This document shows positions 8,619-43,012 of a stretch of 43,012 nt of DNA, piece by piece. Origin of the DNA: Herpetosiphonaceae bacterium (GTDB lineage: Bacteria > Chloroflexota > Chloroflexia > Chloroflexales > Herpetosiphonaceae); assembly GCA_013538855.1 (NCBI GenBank), contig JABXJS010000197.1, forward strand, positions 1 through 43,012, given 5' to 3'. The first letter of the stretch is position 1; each line of letters opens with the position of its first letter. The position numbers and the translations under genes were made by a program. The notes under the pieces were generated by a model that was given only the letters and a program-made list of their open reading frames with translations, was not told the DNA's origin and did not search any database.

Positions 8619-10651
8619 GGCTGCACCTCGACCTGACCAAGCTCGATGTAGTCCGGCCCGGCCGGGCCAGAGTGCGCGGTGACAGGCAGGCGCTGGGCGT
8701 CGATCTCAGGGATGGTCGGATCATACCAGCCGAGCACGACGGTATAGCGGCCAGGCGGCATATCTGCGGGCAAGGGCACAGCGACCTCATCGTGGATGGG
8801 CTGGCCGACCGGCCACTGGCTGGTTGGCAGGCCACCGTAGAGCGGCTCGGTGTCGCGCTGGGCGGCGACCGGCGCGCCGATGGCAGGCAGCAGGTGAATA
8901 AACATCCGATAGCGCTTCTCAAGCGGCTGCTGGGCCTGCCATGTCAACTGCAGCGGCAGTGTGCCGCCTGGATGCAGCGTCGTGGCCGACGACCACGGCT
9001 CTAGCTGATAGCCGAGTAGGTCGATGGCCGCCGCCCAGGTGGCGGTGGGCGAAGCGGGGACAGGCCACGGCGCGCGCAGCTCGAGCGAGCCTGGCTGGAG
9101 CTGGCGCGGAAAGCTCTGGCAGAGCAAGCGCACGCCATTGAAGGCCCAGAAGGGCTGGTCGATGCAGCGCCACTTGCCGTTCATATCAGCAGTCATGAAG
9201 TTAATCCCAACAACGCCCATATCATCTTGCGGATACTGGGGATTAGGCGGATCGATGGTGGCCGCGTTGAGCGGCGCGATCACCAGCCAGGCGCGGCGGT
9301 GGCCAGCCAGCAGCGCCGCGTAGTCGTTGTCGAACTCGCCCTGGGTGTAGCCAAGCGCGCCGACACGCCCGAACGCCTGCGGCTCTGGCAGCGGGTTGGC
9401 GCTGACGCGGCTGGCGTAGTAGCGATAGAGCGGCTTGATATAGGCCGGGTGCACCACAACCACATCGTCAGGCGTGACGTGCTGAGCGAGCGTCGTAAGG
9501 GCAGCGCGATAATCTTCTTTGACCGATGCTCCGCTCCACAAGCCGTAGGGCTTGGTCAGCAAGGCCAGGCTCTGCGGCAGCAGCAGCAGCAGCGCCAGGG
9601 CAGCGGCGGCCCAGCCGGGCAGCGGCAGGCGCTGCATCAGCCACAGCAGGCCAGCGGCGATGAGAATCGACCACAGGCCAAGCACAAAGCTCACATAGCG
9701 CGGCTCGAAGATGGGCAGGCCAAACGCCAGCACCAGCAGGTAGACCAGCACCGGCAGTGCGCCGCAGGTGAGCAGCACGCGTCCAGCCAGCGGCTGACCG
9801 GCCTGCGCCTGCTGCCACAGCGCCCAGCCGCCGAGCACGGCGCAGAGCACGAACGGCAGCAGCAGCAGCGGCACATCGCCAGGCGCACGATCGAGCGTGA
9901 GGCGACCAAGCAGCACCCAGAGCGCCGTCAGCGGCCCGGCGCTGTTGCCGACCGGCGGCGCATTCGGGTCCTGGCGCAAGCCCACGCCAAAACCAATGGC
10001 CATCACAACGCTGAGCGCCAGCGGCACCAGCCACGCCAGACGGCGCGCGCGCGGTGCGAGCGGGGCCTGCCAGACGATCAGCGTCACCTGGCCGATCACG
10101 CTGAGCAGCGCCAGCCGATGCAGCAGCAGACTCAGCGCAACCAGCGCCGCCCAGATCAGCCAGTCGCGGCGTGATCCCGACTGAAGCGCCTGCACCAGCG
10201 CAACCACGGCGGCCGTAATCACGGCCAGCAGCAGGCTATACACCTTGGCATCCTGCGCCTGGAACAGCGCAAACGGATTGAGCAGCAGCACGAGCGCCGC
10301 CAACCCACCGAGTAGCCATCCACCGAAACGCTGCCCAAGCTGAAAGGTCAGCACAACCGCCACGGCTCCGCCCAACGCCGAGGGGAAGCGCAGCGCCCAG
10401 ACGCTATCACCAGCGACAGCGATCCAGCCCTTCATCAGCAGGTGATAGAGCGGATAGCTGGCGCGCGGGCTGAACAGATCGGCGAGCAGCGCGCCCCAGG
10501 AGCGGGTTGTCGCCTGGCTCCAGGTGCCGCCCTCGTCGAGCCAGAGGCTCTGCGCATCGAGCCGAAACAGCCGCAGCAGCAGCGCCAGCAGCAGCACGCC
10601 GAGGCTAGCCCAGAGCCAGCGTGATCGTGATGACAGACGCACAGGCTTCAT
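8615..10651 (-). CDS. GT39/ArnT-like membrane glycosyltransferase
   Basis: A 678-residue integral membrane protein. It starts with an Arg-rich cytoplasmic tip and a membrane helix, then the typical 'QSLWLDEGGTWSQA' loop (catalytic-type Asp39-Glu40), 'YPLYHLLMKGW' and about ten hydrophobic segments to about residue 370. The C-terminal 300 residues are soluble and include a periplasmic-type beta-rich domain ('TLPLQLTWQAQQPLEKRYRM', 'PPGRYTVVLGWYDP'). Similar tails occur in other ArnT-like proteins of filamentous Chloroflexota as far as I recall. The ATG start overlaps the upstream stop by one base (TAATG), which implies coupled translation. It probably transfers a lipid-linked sugar outside the membrane. 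The exact sugar and acceptor cannot be read from sequence. Confidence 0.85.
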   Translation of the reverse strand: MKPVRLSSRSRWLWASLGVLLLALLLRLFRLDAQSLWLDEGGTWSQATTRSWGALLADLFSPRASYPLYHLLMKGWIAVAGDSVWALRFPSALGGAVAVVLTFQLGQRFGGWLLGGLAALVLLLNPFALFQAQDAKVYSLLLAVITAAVVALVQALQSGSRRDWLIWAALVALSLLLHRLALLSVIGQVTLIVWQAPLAPRARRLAWLVPLALSVVMAIGFGVGLRQDPNAPPVGNSAGPLTALWVLLGRLTLDRAPGDVPLLLLPFVLCAVLGGWALWQQAQAGQPLAGRVLLTCGALPVLVYLLVLAFGLPIFEPRYVSFVLGLWSILIAAGLLWLMQRLPLPGWAAAALALLLLLPQSLALLTKPYGLWSGASVKEDYRAALTTLAQHVTPDDVVVVHPAYIKPLYRYYASRVSANPLPEPQAFGRVGALGYTQGEFDNDYAALLAGHRRAWLVIAPLNAATIDPPNPQYPQDDMGVVGINFMTADMNGKWRCIDQPFWAFNGVRLLCQSFPRQLQPGSLELRAPWPVPASPTATWAAAIDLLGYQLEPWSSATTLHPGGTLPLQLTWQAQQPLEKRYRMFIHLLPAIGAPVAAQRDTEPLYGGLPTSQWPVGQPIHDEVAVPLPADMPPGRYTVVLGWYDPTIPEIDAQRLPVTAHSGPAGPDYIELGQVEVQP

Positions 10652-17574: not shown

Positions 17575-17589
17575 GCACGGCGTCACCGC

Positions 17590-17666
17590 GCCCCCGTCGT
17601 CTAGCGGCCTAGGACGCCACCCTTTCAAGGTGGAGATCGTGGGTTCGAATCCCATCGGGGGTACCA
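17590..17666 (+). tRNA. tRNA-Glu (anticodon UUC), copy 1
   Basis: This 77-nt cloverleaf has acceptor arm GCCCCCG pairing with CGGGGGT. The anticodon stem CCACC/GGTGG encloses the loop CTTTCAA, giving anticodon TTC. The T-arm is GTGGG-TTCGAAT-CCCAT, and CCA is encoded. It has its own promoter and a strong terminator 24 bp downstream. Confidence 0.97.
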
Positions 17667-17724: not shown

Positions 17725-17733
17725 TCCCTTCCC

Positions 17734-17810
17734 GCCCTCGTCGTCTAGCGGCCTAGGACGCCACCCTTTCAAGGTGGAGATCGTGGGTTCGAATCCCATC
17801 GGGGGTACCA
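17734..17810 (+). tRNA. tRNA-Glu (anticodon UUC), copy 2
   Basis: From the eighth base on it is identical to copy 1 (70 bases, including the encoded CCA). It differs in the 5' acceptor strand, GCCCTCG instead of GCCCCCG, which turns pair 5-68 into a U-G wobble. It starts only 9 bp after the T-tract of the preceding terminator, and no clear separate promoter is visible. Confidence 0.95.
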
Positions 17811-18668: not shown

Positions 18669-18735
18669 CGCTGTTTATCCTCGTATCACGCTGGCTCGGC
18701 TAGCGCTCGCCGCTCGCACGCCATCCACCACCATC

Positions 18736-19170
18736 CACCTGCGGGCGCACACAAACGGCCGCGCTCGCCATCAGCGGGCGCTGCGGGAACATCGCGCCTG
18801 CCACCGCGCACCGTGCACCGACCGGACCTCCGCTGGAACCGCCGCGCACCATGCACGCCTCGCCTTCCGCCAGAACCATTCACCTGCGGGCGCACACAAA
18901 CGGCCGCGCTCGCCATCAGCGGGCGCTGCGGGCACATCGCGCCTGCCGCCGCGCACCGTGCACCGACCGGACCTCCGCTGGAACCGCCGCGTACCATGCA
19001 CGCCTCGCCTTCCGCCAGAACCATCCACCTGCGGGCGCACACAAACGGCTGCGCTGGCCATCAGCGGGCGCGGCGGGCACATCGCGCCTGCCACCGCGCA
19101 CCGTGCACCGACCAGACCTCCGCTGGAACCGCCGCTCAGCATGCGCGCCTCGCCTTCCACAACAACAATC
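18736..19170. repeat. Three 145-bp tandem repeats in a gene-free stretch
   Basis: Units begin at 18736, 18881 and 19026, each with CACCTGCGGGCGCACACAAA. Units 1 and 2 differ at about 4 of 145 positions; unit 3 is more diverged, especially after about 19135. Degenerate pieces flank the array on both sides. The unit is not a multiple of three and all frames are open because of composition, so I do not read it as coding. It fills most of the 18669-19322 gap between the regulator and the DUF2834 gene. Confidence 0.95.
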
Positions 19171-19228
19171 CGTATGAGCGCACATGCACTGGATAGGTAC
19201 CATCATAGCAGAGATGGCGCGGCGCTCC

Positions 19229-28471: not shown

Positions 28472-28558
28472 CCGCTGCATCACTTATGTCGTGTTAAGTT
28501 CCTGGGCGATTCGGGGCACGGTTTTGGTGAAACAAGCGTCGGCGTGTTCCACCCGTTC

Positions 28559-28630
28559 GCGCCGCGTAGCCGCCGGGCACCCGTTGGGTGGTGCTCACCC
28601 GCTCGTTAGCCGCGATTGCCCAGCGCCGCG
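28559..28630 (-). repeat. Dispersed intergenic repeat, reverse copy
   Basis: Read on the minus strand: CGGCGCTGGGCAATCGCGGC, then a GC-rich imperfect hairpin (GAGCACCACCC/GGGTGCCC), then GCGGCTACGCGGCGC. It has the same order of blocks as the copies at 25.1 and 34.6-37.0 kb. Confidence 0.75.
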
Positions 28631-28871
28631 TATGGCACATCACGCTGCGTAGTGGCGACAGGGCTACTATGTGGTGCGAAAAACGCGCCCGCCTGATCCG
28701 CCCGCCTGCGCCGCGTAGTTGCAGCCCTGCACCCACGCTCGTTAGCCGCGATTGCCCAGCGCCGCGTATGGCACATCACGCTGCGCGGCAGCTGCGCCGC
28801 AAGGTTCGCGTGAAAAACGCGCCCGCCTGATCCGCCCGCCTGCGCCGCGTAGCCGCAGCCCTGCTCGCTCC
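28601..28871. repeat. Imperfect tandem duplication, period about 135 bp
   Basis: A 49-bp block (28601-28649) recurs exactly at 28737-28785. A 36-bp block beginning AAAAACGCGCCCGCC (28679) recurs at 28813. The unit includes the dispersed-repeat core. Confidence 0.85.
28708..28766 (-). repeat. Dispersed intergenic repeat, reverse copy
   Basis: Carries the core GCGCTGGGCAATCGCGGCTA on the minus strand and a GCGCCGCGTAG end, with a shorter middle than its neighbours. Confidence 0.7.
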
Positions 28872-28973
28872 CGCGTGGGCCACGCTGGCCTCGCGCTGAT
28901 TATGTCACGTCATGCTGCTGGGCGGCCTGGAGCGAGGTTCACGTGATTAATCGTCCATGGGCTACGTCCGCCT

Positions 28974-29040
28974 GCGCCGCGTAGCCGCCGGGCACCCGTT
29001 GGGTGGTGCTCGCTCGTGGGCCGCGATTGCCCAGCGCCGC
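28974..29040 (-). repeat. Dispersed intergenic repeat, reverse copy
   Basis: Shares about 38 exact bases (from GCGCCGCGTAGCC on) with the copy at 28559 and ends in the GATTGCCCAGCGCCGC core. Confidence 0.75.
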
Positions 29041-29286
29041 ACGCGGTCCCTGGCGCTGCTGGGCGGCCCGGCGGCCTGGCGCAGGCCACCCGCAGCGACG
29101 AGCAACCACTGGTGAACGAGGGAGACGGCACCAGCGCTGAATCTGTCGGCTGAGCTGTGCGCGGGCTGGCGCAGACGATTCTTTTTTCCAATAACCACCC
29201 CTGCAGCCGCCAGCGCCTGACGGTGTTAAACACCACGCGCCCGCAGCTGCCAGAGCCGCGAGCGCGTGATTGAACGGTGGCGTAGC

Positions 29287-34228: not shown

Positions 34229-34307
34229 GCACCTACCGTCCGGCCCGCGCCCGCAAAGCGGCGAGCAGCACCAGCTAGCAGGGCAATATGTTCTGAAAAG
34301 CAGCGTC

Positions 34308-34563
34308 GGCGCAGGCGCTCAGGCTACCGCAGCGTGGGCCGGCGCTGGTGCTTAATCGTCCGCTCACTGGTGGCGATCCGTGGCTGCGGGTGGCCTGCTC
34401 CAGCACTCGCAGGCAGCCCGGCCGCGCCCGGCCAGACTCGTGCAGGATGCTTTTTTGAAAAATAAGCGCCGGCGCAGGCGCTGCCGCTAGCGCGGCGTGG
34501 GCCGGCGCTGGTGCTTAATCGTCCGCTCACTGGTGGCGATCCGTGGCTGCGGGTGGCCTGCTC
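34308..34563. repeat. Tandem duplication, period 163 bp
   Basis: Copy 1 (34308-34400) and copy 2 (34471-34563) share an exact 69-bp block (34332-34400 and 34495-34563) and a preceding GGCGCAGGCGCT. The block includes CTTAATCGTCCGCTCACTGG. It sits just after the Roco gene in the 859-bp gap before the LRR-only gene; the gap has no gene I can support. Confidence 0.93.
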
Positions 34564-34592: not shown

Positions 34593-34680
34593 GCCAGCGC
34601 CTTTGCCCAAACACGGCGCTGGGCAATCCCGCCTGCACGGGCGGATGGAGACTGCTGCGGCTACGGCGCGTGGGCCGACG
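34593..34680 (+). repeat. Dispersed intergenic repeat, copy C1
   Basis: GCCTTTGCCCAAACACGGCG, then GCTGGGCAATCCCGCCTGC and GCGGCTACGGCGCGTGGGCC. It matches copy C2 over more than 80 bp, with only a few changes. Confidence 0.9.
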
Positions 34681-34802
34681 GCGTGGCGCTGGCGCTTTTT
34701 GTTCCAAAAAAAGCACTGGCGGGCAACAACAGCGCTACGGAGCGCGCGGCGGCAGCGGCGCAACATCACAGCGAGCGCGCACCGCTGCACCGCCGCCAGC
34801 GA

Positions 34803-34914
34803 GCGCCTTTGCCCCAAACCCGGTGCTGGGCAATCCCGCCTACACGGGCGGATGGAGACTGCTGCGGCTACGGCGCGTGGGCCAACGCCGCAGCACGGGC
34901 CTGCATCCGCCCAA
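34803..34914 (+). repeat. Dispersed intergenic repeat, copy C2 (left flank of LRR-only gene)
   Basis: Positions 34821-34914 match 36941-37034 at 91 of 94 bases. Positions 34803-34886 also match C1. It ends 89 bp before the LRR-only promoter. Confidence 0.95.
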
Positions 34915-35002
34915 CCATGCCGCCGACCAGCGTCTTCTTCAGCACATGGCGCGGGGGAGCAGACGCGGGCAGCAAAGCTCGGGGCCATCATCCTCATCAC
35001 CC

Positions 35003-35031
35003 ACGACAAACACAAACATATGTGCTATATT
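35003..35031 (+). promoter_or_regulatory. Promoter of the LRR-only gene
   Basis: ACGACA (35003-35008), a 17-bp spacer, and TGC-TATATT with extended -10 (35023-35031). The start point would be near 35038, 50 bp before the ATG. Confidence 0.6.
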
Positions 35032-35087
35032 AATACCCTATCAATCAGCAGCAGAGCGCCGTGCGCACAGTGAGCAGAGGAGGCCCT

Positions 35088-36893
35088 ATGGACACCCATG
35101 CAGTTGATACATTTCTCACAGCGCTACAGCGCGACAACCAACATGTGCTCTGGATACCAGAGGAGCTAGAGGTGTTGCGCCATGACCTACTCACCATGCA
35201 CACGCTCAACCTCTCACGCTGGCATGATGAGAATGAAAGCGGGTGGAAAAGCCTAGATCAAACAGAGCTTAACGTGCTGCCAGCGGAGATCGCGCTGCTG
35301 GAGGGGCTGCAGGTTCTCGATGTACGCTTCAACCAGTTGAGCGATCTACCCGCAGCAATAGCCTGCCTCAGCACATTAGAGCGGCTTGACGTCAGCTTCA
35401 ATAAACTCCAGCAGTTGCCGCACAGCATTACCCAGTTGCGCAATCTGGCCCAGCTTGACATTGGCTACAACAGCATACGCGGGCTACCCGAGTGGCTTGG
35501 CAGCTGCTCTCAGCTAGAGATGCTTGGACTGGCGGACCTTCAGATTGTGCATCTACCCCTATGGCTGCTACAGCTAGAGCAGCTGCACACCCTCGACATC
35601 AGTGATAATCCACTCGCCCCCTTGCCCGAATGGATGGCTCAGATGCGCATGCTACGAGCACTTAATCTTGGTAGCACACTACTCGAACACTTTCCAGCGG
35701 TTGTGTTGCAGCTGCATGGGCTAGAAAAGCTCAACCTAAGCTATAACAATGTCCAAGCTATTCCTGCTATGATCGCGCAGCTCAGTCAGCTTCAGGTATT
35801 AGATGTTAGCAGCAATGGGTTGCTAACGCTACCTGACCAGATGGCGCAGTTGCTTGAGCTACAAGACCTCAACATAGGCGATAATCCTCAGCTACAGCTT
35901 GCACCTTGGATTGGGAGCTTGCCTCACCTGCATACACTCAATATCAATGATGCACGACTCACAACTCTGCCTGAGTGGATCGCCGGGCTAAGCAACCTGC
36001 AAAGCATAGATATTTCCTCCATGCAGCTCAGCAGTCTGCCGGACTGGTTTTGGCAGCTCACAAACTTACGCCATGTGAACTTCAGTCAGCTTTTCTTCAC
36101 CAGCTTGTCCGAGCGCATCGGCCAGCTCACGCAGCTTCAGACGCTCGACCTCAGCTATACTGCTCTGACCAGCTTGCCGGAAAGCATTGGCCAGCTCACG
36201 CAGCTTCAAACGCTCAACCTCAACTATGTTTCGCTCAATAGCTTACCCGAGAGCATCGGGCAGCTTACAAACCTAGAGCAGCTCACGCTCGTCCAAAGCA
36301 ACCTAAGCAGCCTGCCTGAGAGCTTTGGTCAACTGCAGAAACTACGCACGGTGGACTTTAGCGGCTCACCATTGCAGCACTTGCCGAGCTGTGTTGGACA
36401 GCTGACAAATCTGCTCGCGCTTAATCTGCGCTACACCAGCCTTAGCGAACTAAGCGCTACGATTGGCCAGTTGCGCCAGCTTCAATACCTTGAGCTAAGC
36501 GCAAACCAGCTCACCGCACTGCCAAGCGCGCTCGCCCAGCTCAAACAGCTGCGCTTCCTTGATGTAAGTAACAATCAGCTCAGCGTATTTCCCTCAGTTA
36601 TCACCCAGCTAGCTCATCTTCGCGAGCTTAATCTCTCTGAAAACCAGCTCACCAGCATACCGCAGGACATCATCCAGCTGGCTTTGCTCCAGACACTCTA
36701 CTTAAGTGATAATCAACTCACTGCGCTGCCGCCCAACCTTGATCAACTCAGGCATCTTCTTAACCTTTCGGTCTCCAGAAATCCTGTGCCTATTTCAGAG
36801 AAGATCAAAAGTAGCGCTATGCCAGCGCACCAGCTGCTTACTCACTACTACGCTATGGTTGCAGAGCGTGGAGCAACAACAGAGGACAAATGA
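35088..36893 (+). CDS. LRR-only paralogue of the Roco sensor half
   Basis: A 601-residue soluble protein. Residues 1-60 align with the start of the Roco protein ('MDTHAVDTFLTALQRDNQHV' against 'MDAQAVATFLAALQRDNPHI'). They are followed by about 22 leucine-rich repeats of 23 residues. It ends 'MPAHQLLTHYYAMVAERGAT', which lines up with the Roco segment 'ILEYYYQPRRAMAEA' just ahead of its P-loop, so the GTPase and COR domains are absent. No signal peptide or membrane helix. The ATG follows AGAGGAGG by four bases and has its own promoter. The LRRs are far more diverged than those of the Roco gene. It may act as a co-sensor, competitor or adaptor of the Roco protein; that is inference. It is flanked by direct repeats. 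Confidence 0.9.
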   Translation: MDTHAVDTFLTALQRDNQHVLWIPEELEVLRHDLLTMHTLNLSRWHDENESGWKSLDQTELNVLPAEIALLEGLQVLDVRFNQLSDLPAAIACLSTLERLDVSFNKLQQLPHSITQLRNLAQLDIGYNSIRGLPEWLGSCSQLEMLGLADLQIVHLPLWLLQLEQLHTLDISDNPLAPLPEWMAQMRMLRALNLGSTLLEHFPAVVLQLHGLEKLNLSYNNVQAIPAMIAQLSQLQVLDVSSNGLLTLPDQMAQLLELQDLNIGDNPQLQLAPWIGSLPHLHTLNINDARLTTLPEWIAGLSNLQSIDISSMQLSSLPDWFWQLTNLRHVNFSQLFFTSLSERIGQLTQLQTLDLSYTALTSLPESIGQLTQLQTLNLNYVSLNSLPESIGQLTNLEQLTLVQSNLSSLPESFGQLQKLRTVDFSGSPLQHLPSCVGQLTNLLALNLRYTSLSELSATIGQLRQLQYLELSANQLTALPSALAQLKQLRFLDVSNNQLSVFPSVITQLAHLRELNLSENQLTSIPQDIIQLALLQTLYLSDNQLTALPPNLDQLRHLLNLSVSRNPVPISEKIKSSAMPAHQLLTHYYAMVAERGATTEDK

Positions 36894-36940
36894 GGGCCAA
36901 GCGTGGCTCAACGCTGCCAGCCAGCGTTGCCTTCAGCATA

Positions 36941-37034
36941 CGGCGCTGGGCAATCCCGCCTACACGGGCGGATGGAGACTGCTGCGGCTACGGCGCGGGG
37001 GCCGACGCCGCAGCACGGGCCTGCATCCGCCCAA
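36941..37034 (+). repeat. Dispersed intergenic repeat, copy C3 (right flank of LRR-only gene)
   Basis: Same orientation as C2 and 97% identical over 94 bp, starting 48 bp after the LRR-only stop codon. C2 and C3 are 2120 bp apart. Confidence 0.95.
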
Positions 37035-37177: not shown

Positions 37178-38527
37178 ATGGAGGACATGTTCAGCGCACA
37201 CGCGGCGGCGGCGCGCGCCAATGAGGCACCGCTGGCCGCCCGCATGCGCCCGCGCACGCTCGATGAGTTCGTCGGGCAGGCGCAGATCGTTGGCGATGGG
37301 CGGCTGCTGCGGCGGCTGATCGAGCGCGACCAGCTGCTCTCGCTGATTTTGTGGGGGCCGCCGGGCACTGGCAAGACCACGCTGGCGCGGCTGCTGGCGC
37401 AGGCGTCGTCGGCGCACTTCGAGCCGCTGTCGGCGGTCAGCGCTGGCGTGGCCGATCTGCGGCGGGTGGTCAAGGAGGCCAACGAGCGCCGCGGCATGTA
37501 CACCAAGCGCACCGTCCTGTTTATCGACGAGATCCATCGCTGGAACAAGGCCCAGCAGGATGCGGTGCTGCCGCACGTCGAGGACGGCACGGTCGTGCTC
37601 ATCGGCGCAACAACTGAAAACCCATCGTTTGAGATCAACAGCGCGCTGCTGTCGCGCTGCCGCGTGATCACCCTGGAGGCGCTCAGCGACGACGACATCG
37701 GCGCAATCGTCGACCGCGCGCTCGCCGATCGTGAGCGCGGGCTGGGCCAGCCGCCAACCACCCTGACCGCCGACGCGCGCAGCACGCTGGTCAACCTGGC
37801 CAACGGCGACGCACGTGCGGCGCTGACCGCGCTGGAGGCCGCCGCGCTAGCCCAGCCGCTGCAGGACGGCACGCGCCAGATTGATCGCGACGCCATCATC
37901 GAGGCCTACCAGCGCCGCACCGTGGCCTACGACAAAAATGGCGAGCTGCACTACGACGGCATCTCGGCGCTGCACAAGTCGGTGCGCGACAGCGATCCCG
38001 ACGGCGCGCTGTACTGGCTCGGGCGCATGCTGGAGGGCGGCGAAGACCCGCTCTATGTGGCTCGCCGCGTCATCCGCATGGCGGTCGAGGACATCGGCCT
38101 AGCCGAGCCGAACGCGCTGGCGATGTGCGTCGCCGCCCAGCAGGCCGTGCACTTCATGGGCGCTGGCGAGGGCGCGCTGGCGCTGGCGCAGGCGGTGGTG
38201 TTTCTGGCGCAAGCGCCCAAGAGCAACGCGGTGTATCGCGCCTACGGAGCCGTGCAGCAGGACGTGGCCGAGACGCGCAACGATCCTGTGCCGCTGCACC
38301 TGCGCAACGCCGCCACCGGGCTGATGCGCGGCCTGGGCTACGGCGCAGGCTACAAGTACGCCCACGACTACGCCGACGCCCAGGTCGAGCAAGAGCACCT
38401 GCCAGCCAACCTACAGGGCCGCCGCTACTACGAGCCAACCAGCCACGGCTATGAGGCCAGCATCCAGCAGCGCCTAGCCTGGCGCACCACCCCATCAGCT
38501 GCATCTAGCGAGGAGACCGACGCATGA
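37178..38527 (+). CDS. rarA: Replication-associated recombination protein A (AAA+ ATPase)
   Basis: A 449-residue AAA+ protein of the RarA/MgsA/WRNIP1 family. It acts at stalled replication forks and binds SSB and DNA ends in the cytoplasm. Walker A 'GPPGTGKT' is at 60-67, Walker B 'LFIDEIHRWNK' at 114-124 (Trp where Phe is usual), sensor 1 'GATTENPSF' at 143-151 and the arginine finger in 'ALLSRCRV' (157-164). The C-terminal tetramerisation region has 'YDGISALHKSVRDSDPDGAL', 'MAVEDIGLAEPNAL' and 'RRYYEPTSHGYE'. Length is as expected. The ribosome site is modest (GAGG, AGGT). Its stop overlaps the next start (ATGA). Confidence 0.96.
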   Translation: MEDMFSAHAAAARANEAPLAARMRPRTLDEFVGQAQIVGDGRLLRRLIERDQLLSLILWGPPGTGKTTLARLLAQASSAHFEPLSAVSAGVADLRRVVKEANERRGMYTKRTVLFIDEIHRWNKAQQDAVLPHVEDGTVVLIGATTENPSFEINSALLSRCRVITLEALSDDDIGAIVDRALADRERGLGQPPTTLTADARSTLVNLANGDARAALTALEAAALAQPLQDGTRQIDRDAIIEAYQRRTVAYDKNGELHYDGISALHKSVRDSDPDGALYWLGRMLEGGEDPLYVARRVIRMAVEDIGLAEPNALAMCVAAQQAVHFMGAGEGALALAQAVVFLAQAPKSNAVYRAYGAVQQDVAETRNDPVPLHLRNAATGLMRGLGYGAGYKYAHDYADAQVEQEHLPANLQGRRYYEPTSHGYEASIQQRLAWRTTPSAASSEETDA

Positions 38528-42787: not shown

Positions 42788-42822
42788 CCGCCGCTTGCCC
42801 AGGCAGCAAGCGGCGGTTTTTT
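42788..42822 (+). terminator. Strong Rho-independent terminator
   Basis: A perfect 11-bp stem (ccgccgcttgc/gcaagcggcgg), a 7-nt loop, then TTTTTT. It ends the DUF4397 gene. Confidence 0.95.
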
Positions 42823-42824
42823 GT

Positions 42825-43012
42825 TGATCGTCTGCGCCGTGGTTGATGCTCGGGTATGCGGCGACAAGGTCTGCGCTGTGCTCAGCCAACCGCGCTGACG
42901 GCCCCGTGCCCTGCCCGCGTCCTGCTGCGCCCGCCTGCGCCAAAAGCCGCGCTGATCCGTGCCGCCTTGTTTCGTGATCGTCTGCGCCGTGGTTGATGCT
43001 CGGGTATGCGGC
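42825..43012. repeat. 38-bp direct repeat, period 150 bp, at the window edge
   Basis: TGATCGTCTGCGCCGTGGTT and the 18 bases after it occur exactly at 42825-42862 and 42975-43012. The second copy touches the end of the window, so more units may follow. The block GCGCCGTGGTTGAT also occurs in the hairpin at 19689. No gene is seen here. Confidence 0.95.

Follow-up and report, generated by a model that had tools for sequence, protein, structure and literature searches.

The question raised by this locus is whether a gene enclosed by two nearly identical direct repeats is a variable unit or an ordinary gene that happens to lie between members of a larger repeat family. The gene, P0001, encodes a protein consisting of leucine-rich repeats (LRR) only and starts 860 bp downstream of a Roco gene, P0002. 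Both lie on a contig of a Herpetosiphonaceae bacterium, of which the whole stretch of 43,012 nt was analyzed (in the following called the window). An earlier sequence-only reading had suggested that recombination between the flanking repeats, C2 and C3, would delete or duplicate exactly one LRR-only unit, making the gene a possible variable cassette. We consider it probable that two things coincide here: repeats of a genome-wide intergenic family bracket the gene owing to their density, and P0001 is a headless Roco paralogue that probably acts in trans.

Repeat copies around the LRR-only gene

C2 and C3 align without gaps over 94 nt with three mismatches (97% identity), in the same orientation and 2120 bp apart from start to start (Table 1). 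Their likeness is far above chance, with E 3.5e-39 when searched against the genome, the longest exact stretch common to both is 53 bp, and both are located in intergenic DNA. That they flank the gene together with a promoter-like site, as originally described, was borne out by the repeat search and the ORF coordinates. The P0001 ORF is intact from its ATG to its stop codon, with a Shine-Dalgarno-like GGAGG upstream. The promoter candidate is one of two sigma-70-like consensus matches, with 1.1 expected. Because this site lies between C2 and the gene, an exchange between C2 and C3 would take the promoter and P0001 together and nothing else.

Table 1 Features of the P0001 locus, with positions in the window.
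Feature	Position	Strand	Remarks
Roco gene P0002, 1012 aa	31190..34228	+	LRR-Roc-COR-A-COR-B; P0001 paralogue
Separate local intergenic repeat pair	34296..34563	+	105 bp, 92%, 163 bp apart; between Roco and C1
C1, partial intergenic repeat copy	34608..34683	+	CGCTGGGCAATCCCG core at 34617; last third shows no relation to C2/C3
C2, full 94-bp repeat copy	34821..34914	+	upstream of LRR-only gene
Sigma-70-like promoter match	35003..35031	+	ACGACA-17-TATATT; between C2 and P0001; consensus match only
LRR-only gene P0001, 601 aa	35088..36893	+	Roco-type N-terminal cap, LRR array, C-terminal LRR cap and linker, without Roc-COR
C3, 94-bp repeat copy	36941..37034	+	48 bp past LRR-only stop codon
AAA+ ATPase gene, presumably RarA/MgsA-like	37178..38527	+	74-83% conserved in family relatives

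C1 had been proposed as a third site, which holds for a part of it: the similarity is 93% across 76 bp and 82% across all 94 bp. In the 61-bp middle, the three copies are 97% identical in each pairwise comparison. In the left part, C2 is like C1 (79%); in the right part, C2 equals C3 at 97%, while C1 reaches 60%, a value close to the top of the range for random 33-mers. C2 can be read as a mosaic of a C1-like left and a C3-like right part, an arrangement compatible with earlier exchange among the three copies but no proof of it. Integron attC sites (RYYYAAC/GTTRRRY, inspected by eye) were rejected as a candidate, since GCCCAAC ends C2 but C3 ends with GCCCAAA, and no GTTRRRY partner is present at the other end.

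A genus-restricted family of intergenic repeats

The core CGCTGGGCAATCCCG has 42 matches in the genome if one mismatch is allowed, compared to none for the reversed control. A degenerate version of the core yielded 74 matches, again with 0 in the control, and other genomes of the order contained 1 to 22. We built a sequence profile, R1, from 21 elements. At E ≤ 0.01, it identified no fewer than 123 elements in the 6.3-Mb genome; this number is a lower bound, as 150 of 15,097 first-look candidates were scored. In eight family relatives, the profile found 0 or 1 element per genome. According to the alignments, the elements are GC-rich and intergenic, about 95 bp long, and combine a short conserved core, CGCTGGGCAATCSCG, with locus-specific bodies. 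Such copies abound between the genes of this genome and are absent from relatives, which makes C1 to C3 members of a genus-restricted interspersed intergenic repeat family. The exact C2 core had no match in viral contigs, and a search of the literature on intergenic repeats in Chloroflexus and Herpetosiphon relatives yielded nothing relevant.

The elements group into 84 clusters. Their median identity is 88% if they are at most 700 bp apart, and 70% for elements on other contigs. These local clusters with like members suggest that neighbouring copies multiply or are homogenized locally, which could proceed by slippage, unequal exchange or gene conversion. As 24 of the 123 elements are situated at contig starts (within 350 bp), arrays probably broke the assembly and the true copy numbers are probably higher. 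One further cluster within the window, at 28534-29067, consists of four locally alike minus-strand elements.

Local repetition as such extends beyond this family. In twenty stretches sampled regardless of the motif (287 kb), local intergenic repeats, whatever their kind, formed 16 clusters, and near-tandem intergenic repeats occurred in about half of randomly taken stretches. In the relatives, five local repeat clusters were found in 123 kb, all in two genomes; local repetition is therefore not unique to this genome, but the element family is. The window itself holds a local array of three 170-nt copies at 18725-19184 (145-bp spacing, 88-96%, with a period that is not a multiple of three) and two tRNA genes (17589-17666 and 17733-17810) that are 99% identical and 144 bp apart. 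A 46-bp repeat is located at 42817-42862 and 42967-43012; the second copy runs up to the very last base of the contig, so that a repeat probably broke the assembly at this point.

Short interspersed intergenic repeats are known in bacteria as REP, ERIC and Correia-type elements. The C1-C3 family resembles these in element length, intergenic location, clustering, a copy number above 100 and restriction to one lineage, but differs in its locus-specific bodies around a common core and in lacking a family-wide hairpin. The latter point bears on the alternative that C2 and C3 are functional hairpins, serving as terminator or mRNA 3′ stabilizer and kept alike by selection around P0001. C2 can form an imperfect hairpin (GGGCGGATG...CATCCGCCC), both copies fold better than shuffled sequences (z-scores for C2 and C3 of -2.3 and -3.4 as DNA, -4.3 and -3.7 as RNA), and the position of C3 just past the stop codon would fit such a role. 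However, C1 shows no folding advantage over shuffles (z -0.6), the family taken together has hardly any (mean z -0.7), C2 sits upstream of the promoter-like site and no T-run follows. Moreover, no conserved covarying pairs were found across the 21 elements, on which grounds a conserved RNA structure of the family was rejected, as was a stem-loop conserved across copies as in REP-type repeats. We regard the hairpin explanation as quite unlikely. An Rfam search of the window matched two tRNAs only and none of the elements.

The LRR-only protein and the adjacent Roco protein

The Roco protein of Chlorobium tepidum, CtRoco, is a bacterial model for LRRK2. P0002 shares its architecture, with LRR, Roc, COR-A and COR-B assigned by Pfam, and its closest solved structures are the bacterial ‘Rab family protein’ entries 8r4b and 6hlu, the latter named as CtRoco in PMC11052575. 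In P0001, LRR families alone scored above the Pfam cut-off, plus one sub-threshold match; a Roc GTPase followed by COR, as defines the Roco family, is present in P0002 and entirely lacking in P0001. A Roc-COR remnant was also sought in the 284 bp downstream of P0001, and none was found.

The closest relative of P0001 within the genome is the adjacent P0002, with 39% identity across 442 residues, beginning at Met1. In the end-to-end alignment, the match continues via the C-terminal cap and the linker up to the start of Roc: the end of the LRR-only protein, ...AERGATTEDK before the stop, faces ...PRRAMAEAKVVLVGQGGVGKT of the Roco protein, and P0001 stops where the Roc GTPase of P0002 begins. The alignment shows P0001 to be, judged by sequence, a “headless Roco”: it is paralogous to the N-terminal half of P0002 and keeps the LRR-Roc linker; the corresponding part of CtRoco is its N-terminal LRR plus linker. 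A known LRR-only protein, Leptospira LIC11098 (PDB 4u08), has the same plain LPxxLxxLxxLxxLxLxxNxL solenoid as P0001; unlike it, P0001 possesses a Roco-type N-terminal cap and a linker and adjoins a Roco gene.

In the contig search, the only named relatives of P0001 were three distant LRR proteins from other phyla (32-37% identity). No signal peptide was seen by eye. A role in anti-phage defence was rejected, as P0001 had no PADLOC match and its neighbours only weak ones.

In CtRoco, activation hinges on the LRR-Roc linker, whose helix, buried among LRR, Roc and COR-A in the dimer, acts as a swivel point upon GTP binding (PMC11052575). A free LRR-linker protein could, by analogy, act on a Roco protein in trans, and P0001 would most likely work in trans with P0002. 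It might dock on Roc-COR, replacing the Roco protein's own LRR, or it might serve as a ligand-binding scaffold whose partners are common with Roco.

Bracketing, recombination and origin of the unit

To judge the C2/C3 bracket, we compared it with the other clusters of the genome. Same-orientation cluster pairs 0.7-2.5 kb apart occur twice genome-wide, at the P0001 locus and in C62, versus 0.95 expected (P(≥2) 0.24). Within 0.7-8.5 kb they are somewhat commoner than by random placement (8 versus 4.2, in a simulation that ignores contig breaks). Other gene-bracketing repeat pairs are those of C25 (184 bp, 92%), C62 (79%) and C70 (83%), and with 42 elements compared, the identity of C2 and C3 is the highest among gene-separated pairs. 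The bracketing frequency is thus near random, but the 97% identity tops all such pairs compared, and this identity alone keeps the cassette idea alive. Together with the mosaic C2, it may point to repeated exchange at the P0001 locus.

According to the cassette explanation, recombination at C2 and C3 would remove or multiply the LRR-only gene as one unit, so that strains would carry zero, one or more copies. The geometry does allow the loop-out of one gene, given the length, identity, orientation and intergenic position of the repeats and a unit comprising only the gene and the promoter-like site; a C2 with a C1-like left and a C3-like right part is the form left by a deletion between two such repeats, and the eight family genomes have neither a close P0001 relative nor an LRR gene at this position. 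The right third of C1 and the left flank of C3 may, however, merely have diverged. The unit is single-copy in the genome, the one genome of the genus, in which neither a tandem copy nor an empty site was found. The repeats are not specific to the unit: their presence elsewhere in the genome, one half of what the sequence-only reading had named as speaking against its proposal, is what we observed, with at least 123 family members and similar local repeats in about half of the stretches. Furthermore, a second LRR-only gene (C240:7946-9625), which has its N-terminal cap in common with P0001, is followed by one element 36 bp downstream (9661-9725), and none of the elements listed falls in the 130 bp that separate it from the preceding ORF upstream. 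An LRR-only gene of this kind consequently needs no bracket. A variable cassette is therefore unlikely. The C2/C3 bracket is roughly what the genome-wide element density yields and does not speak for a special, movable cassette. P0001 might be lost through homologous exchange, but this would amount to ordinary recombination between repeats, and we saw no sign of its occurrence. Very unlikely is the wider view that locally homogenized repeats are a general engine of single-gene gain and loss in the genus, here carving out a strain-switchable, trans-acting LRR-linker regulator of Roco.

Horizontal gain of P0001, or of the Roco and LRR-only pair, with repeats that merely flank or seeded the insertion, is a tentative possibility and compatible with the coincidence of dense repeats and a headless Roco that we prefer. 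The eight family genomes contain neither the C1-C3 repeat nor a Roco/LRR arrangement beside the rarA-like gene, which has other neighbours there, and the locus is thus lineage-specific at the depth available. In family relatives, a gene for 418-427 aa lies divergently beside the rarA-like gene (L122-L128); the G008 protein had no significant match in the window. GC3 is about 45-76% in the LRR parts of P0001 and P0002, versus 90-96% in most of Roc-COR and 88% in the rarA-like gene; within the Roco gene, values of 45-65% in the LRR part give way abruptly to 90-96% in Roc-COR. Since the LRR part of the Roco gene is also low, codon constraint on LRRs may explain these values as well as horizontal gain, yet the LRR-only gene on C240 has a GC3 of 79%. 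Low GC3 would agree with codon constraint on LRRs and with LRR modules of separate origin alike. That the closest relative of P0001 in the genome is the adjacent Roco gene also fits local duplication.

Near-identical repeats around a gene need not mean a cassette if the genome has more than 100 copies of the repeat. What is worth keeping from this locus is the gene pair, a full Roco gene and a paralogue ending at the LRR-Roc junction. As the linker is the activation hinge in CtRoco, Roco regulation in trans could be usefully tested with a naturally occurring free LRR-linker protein.
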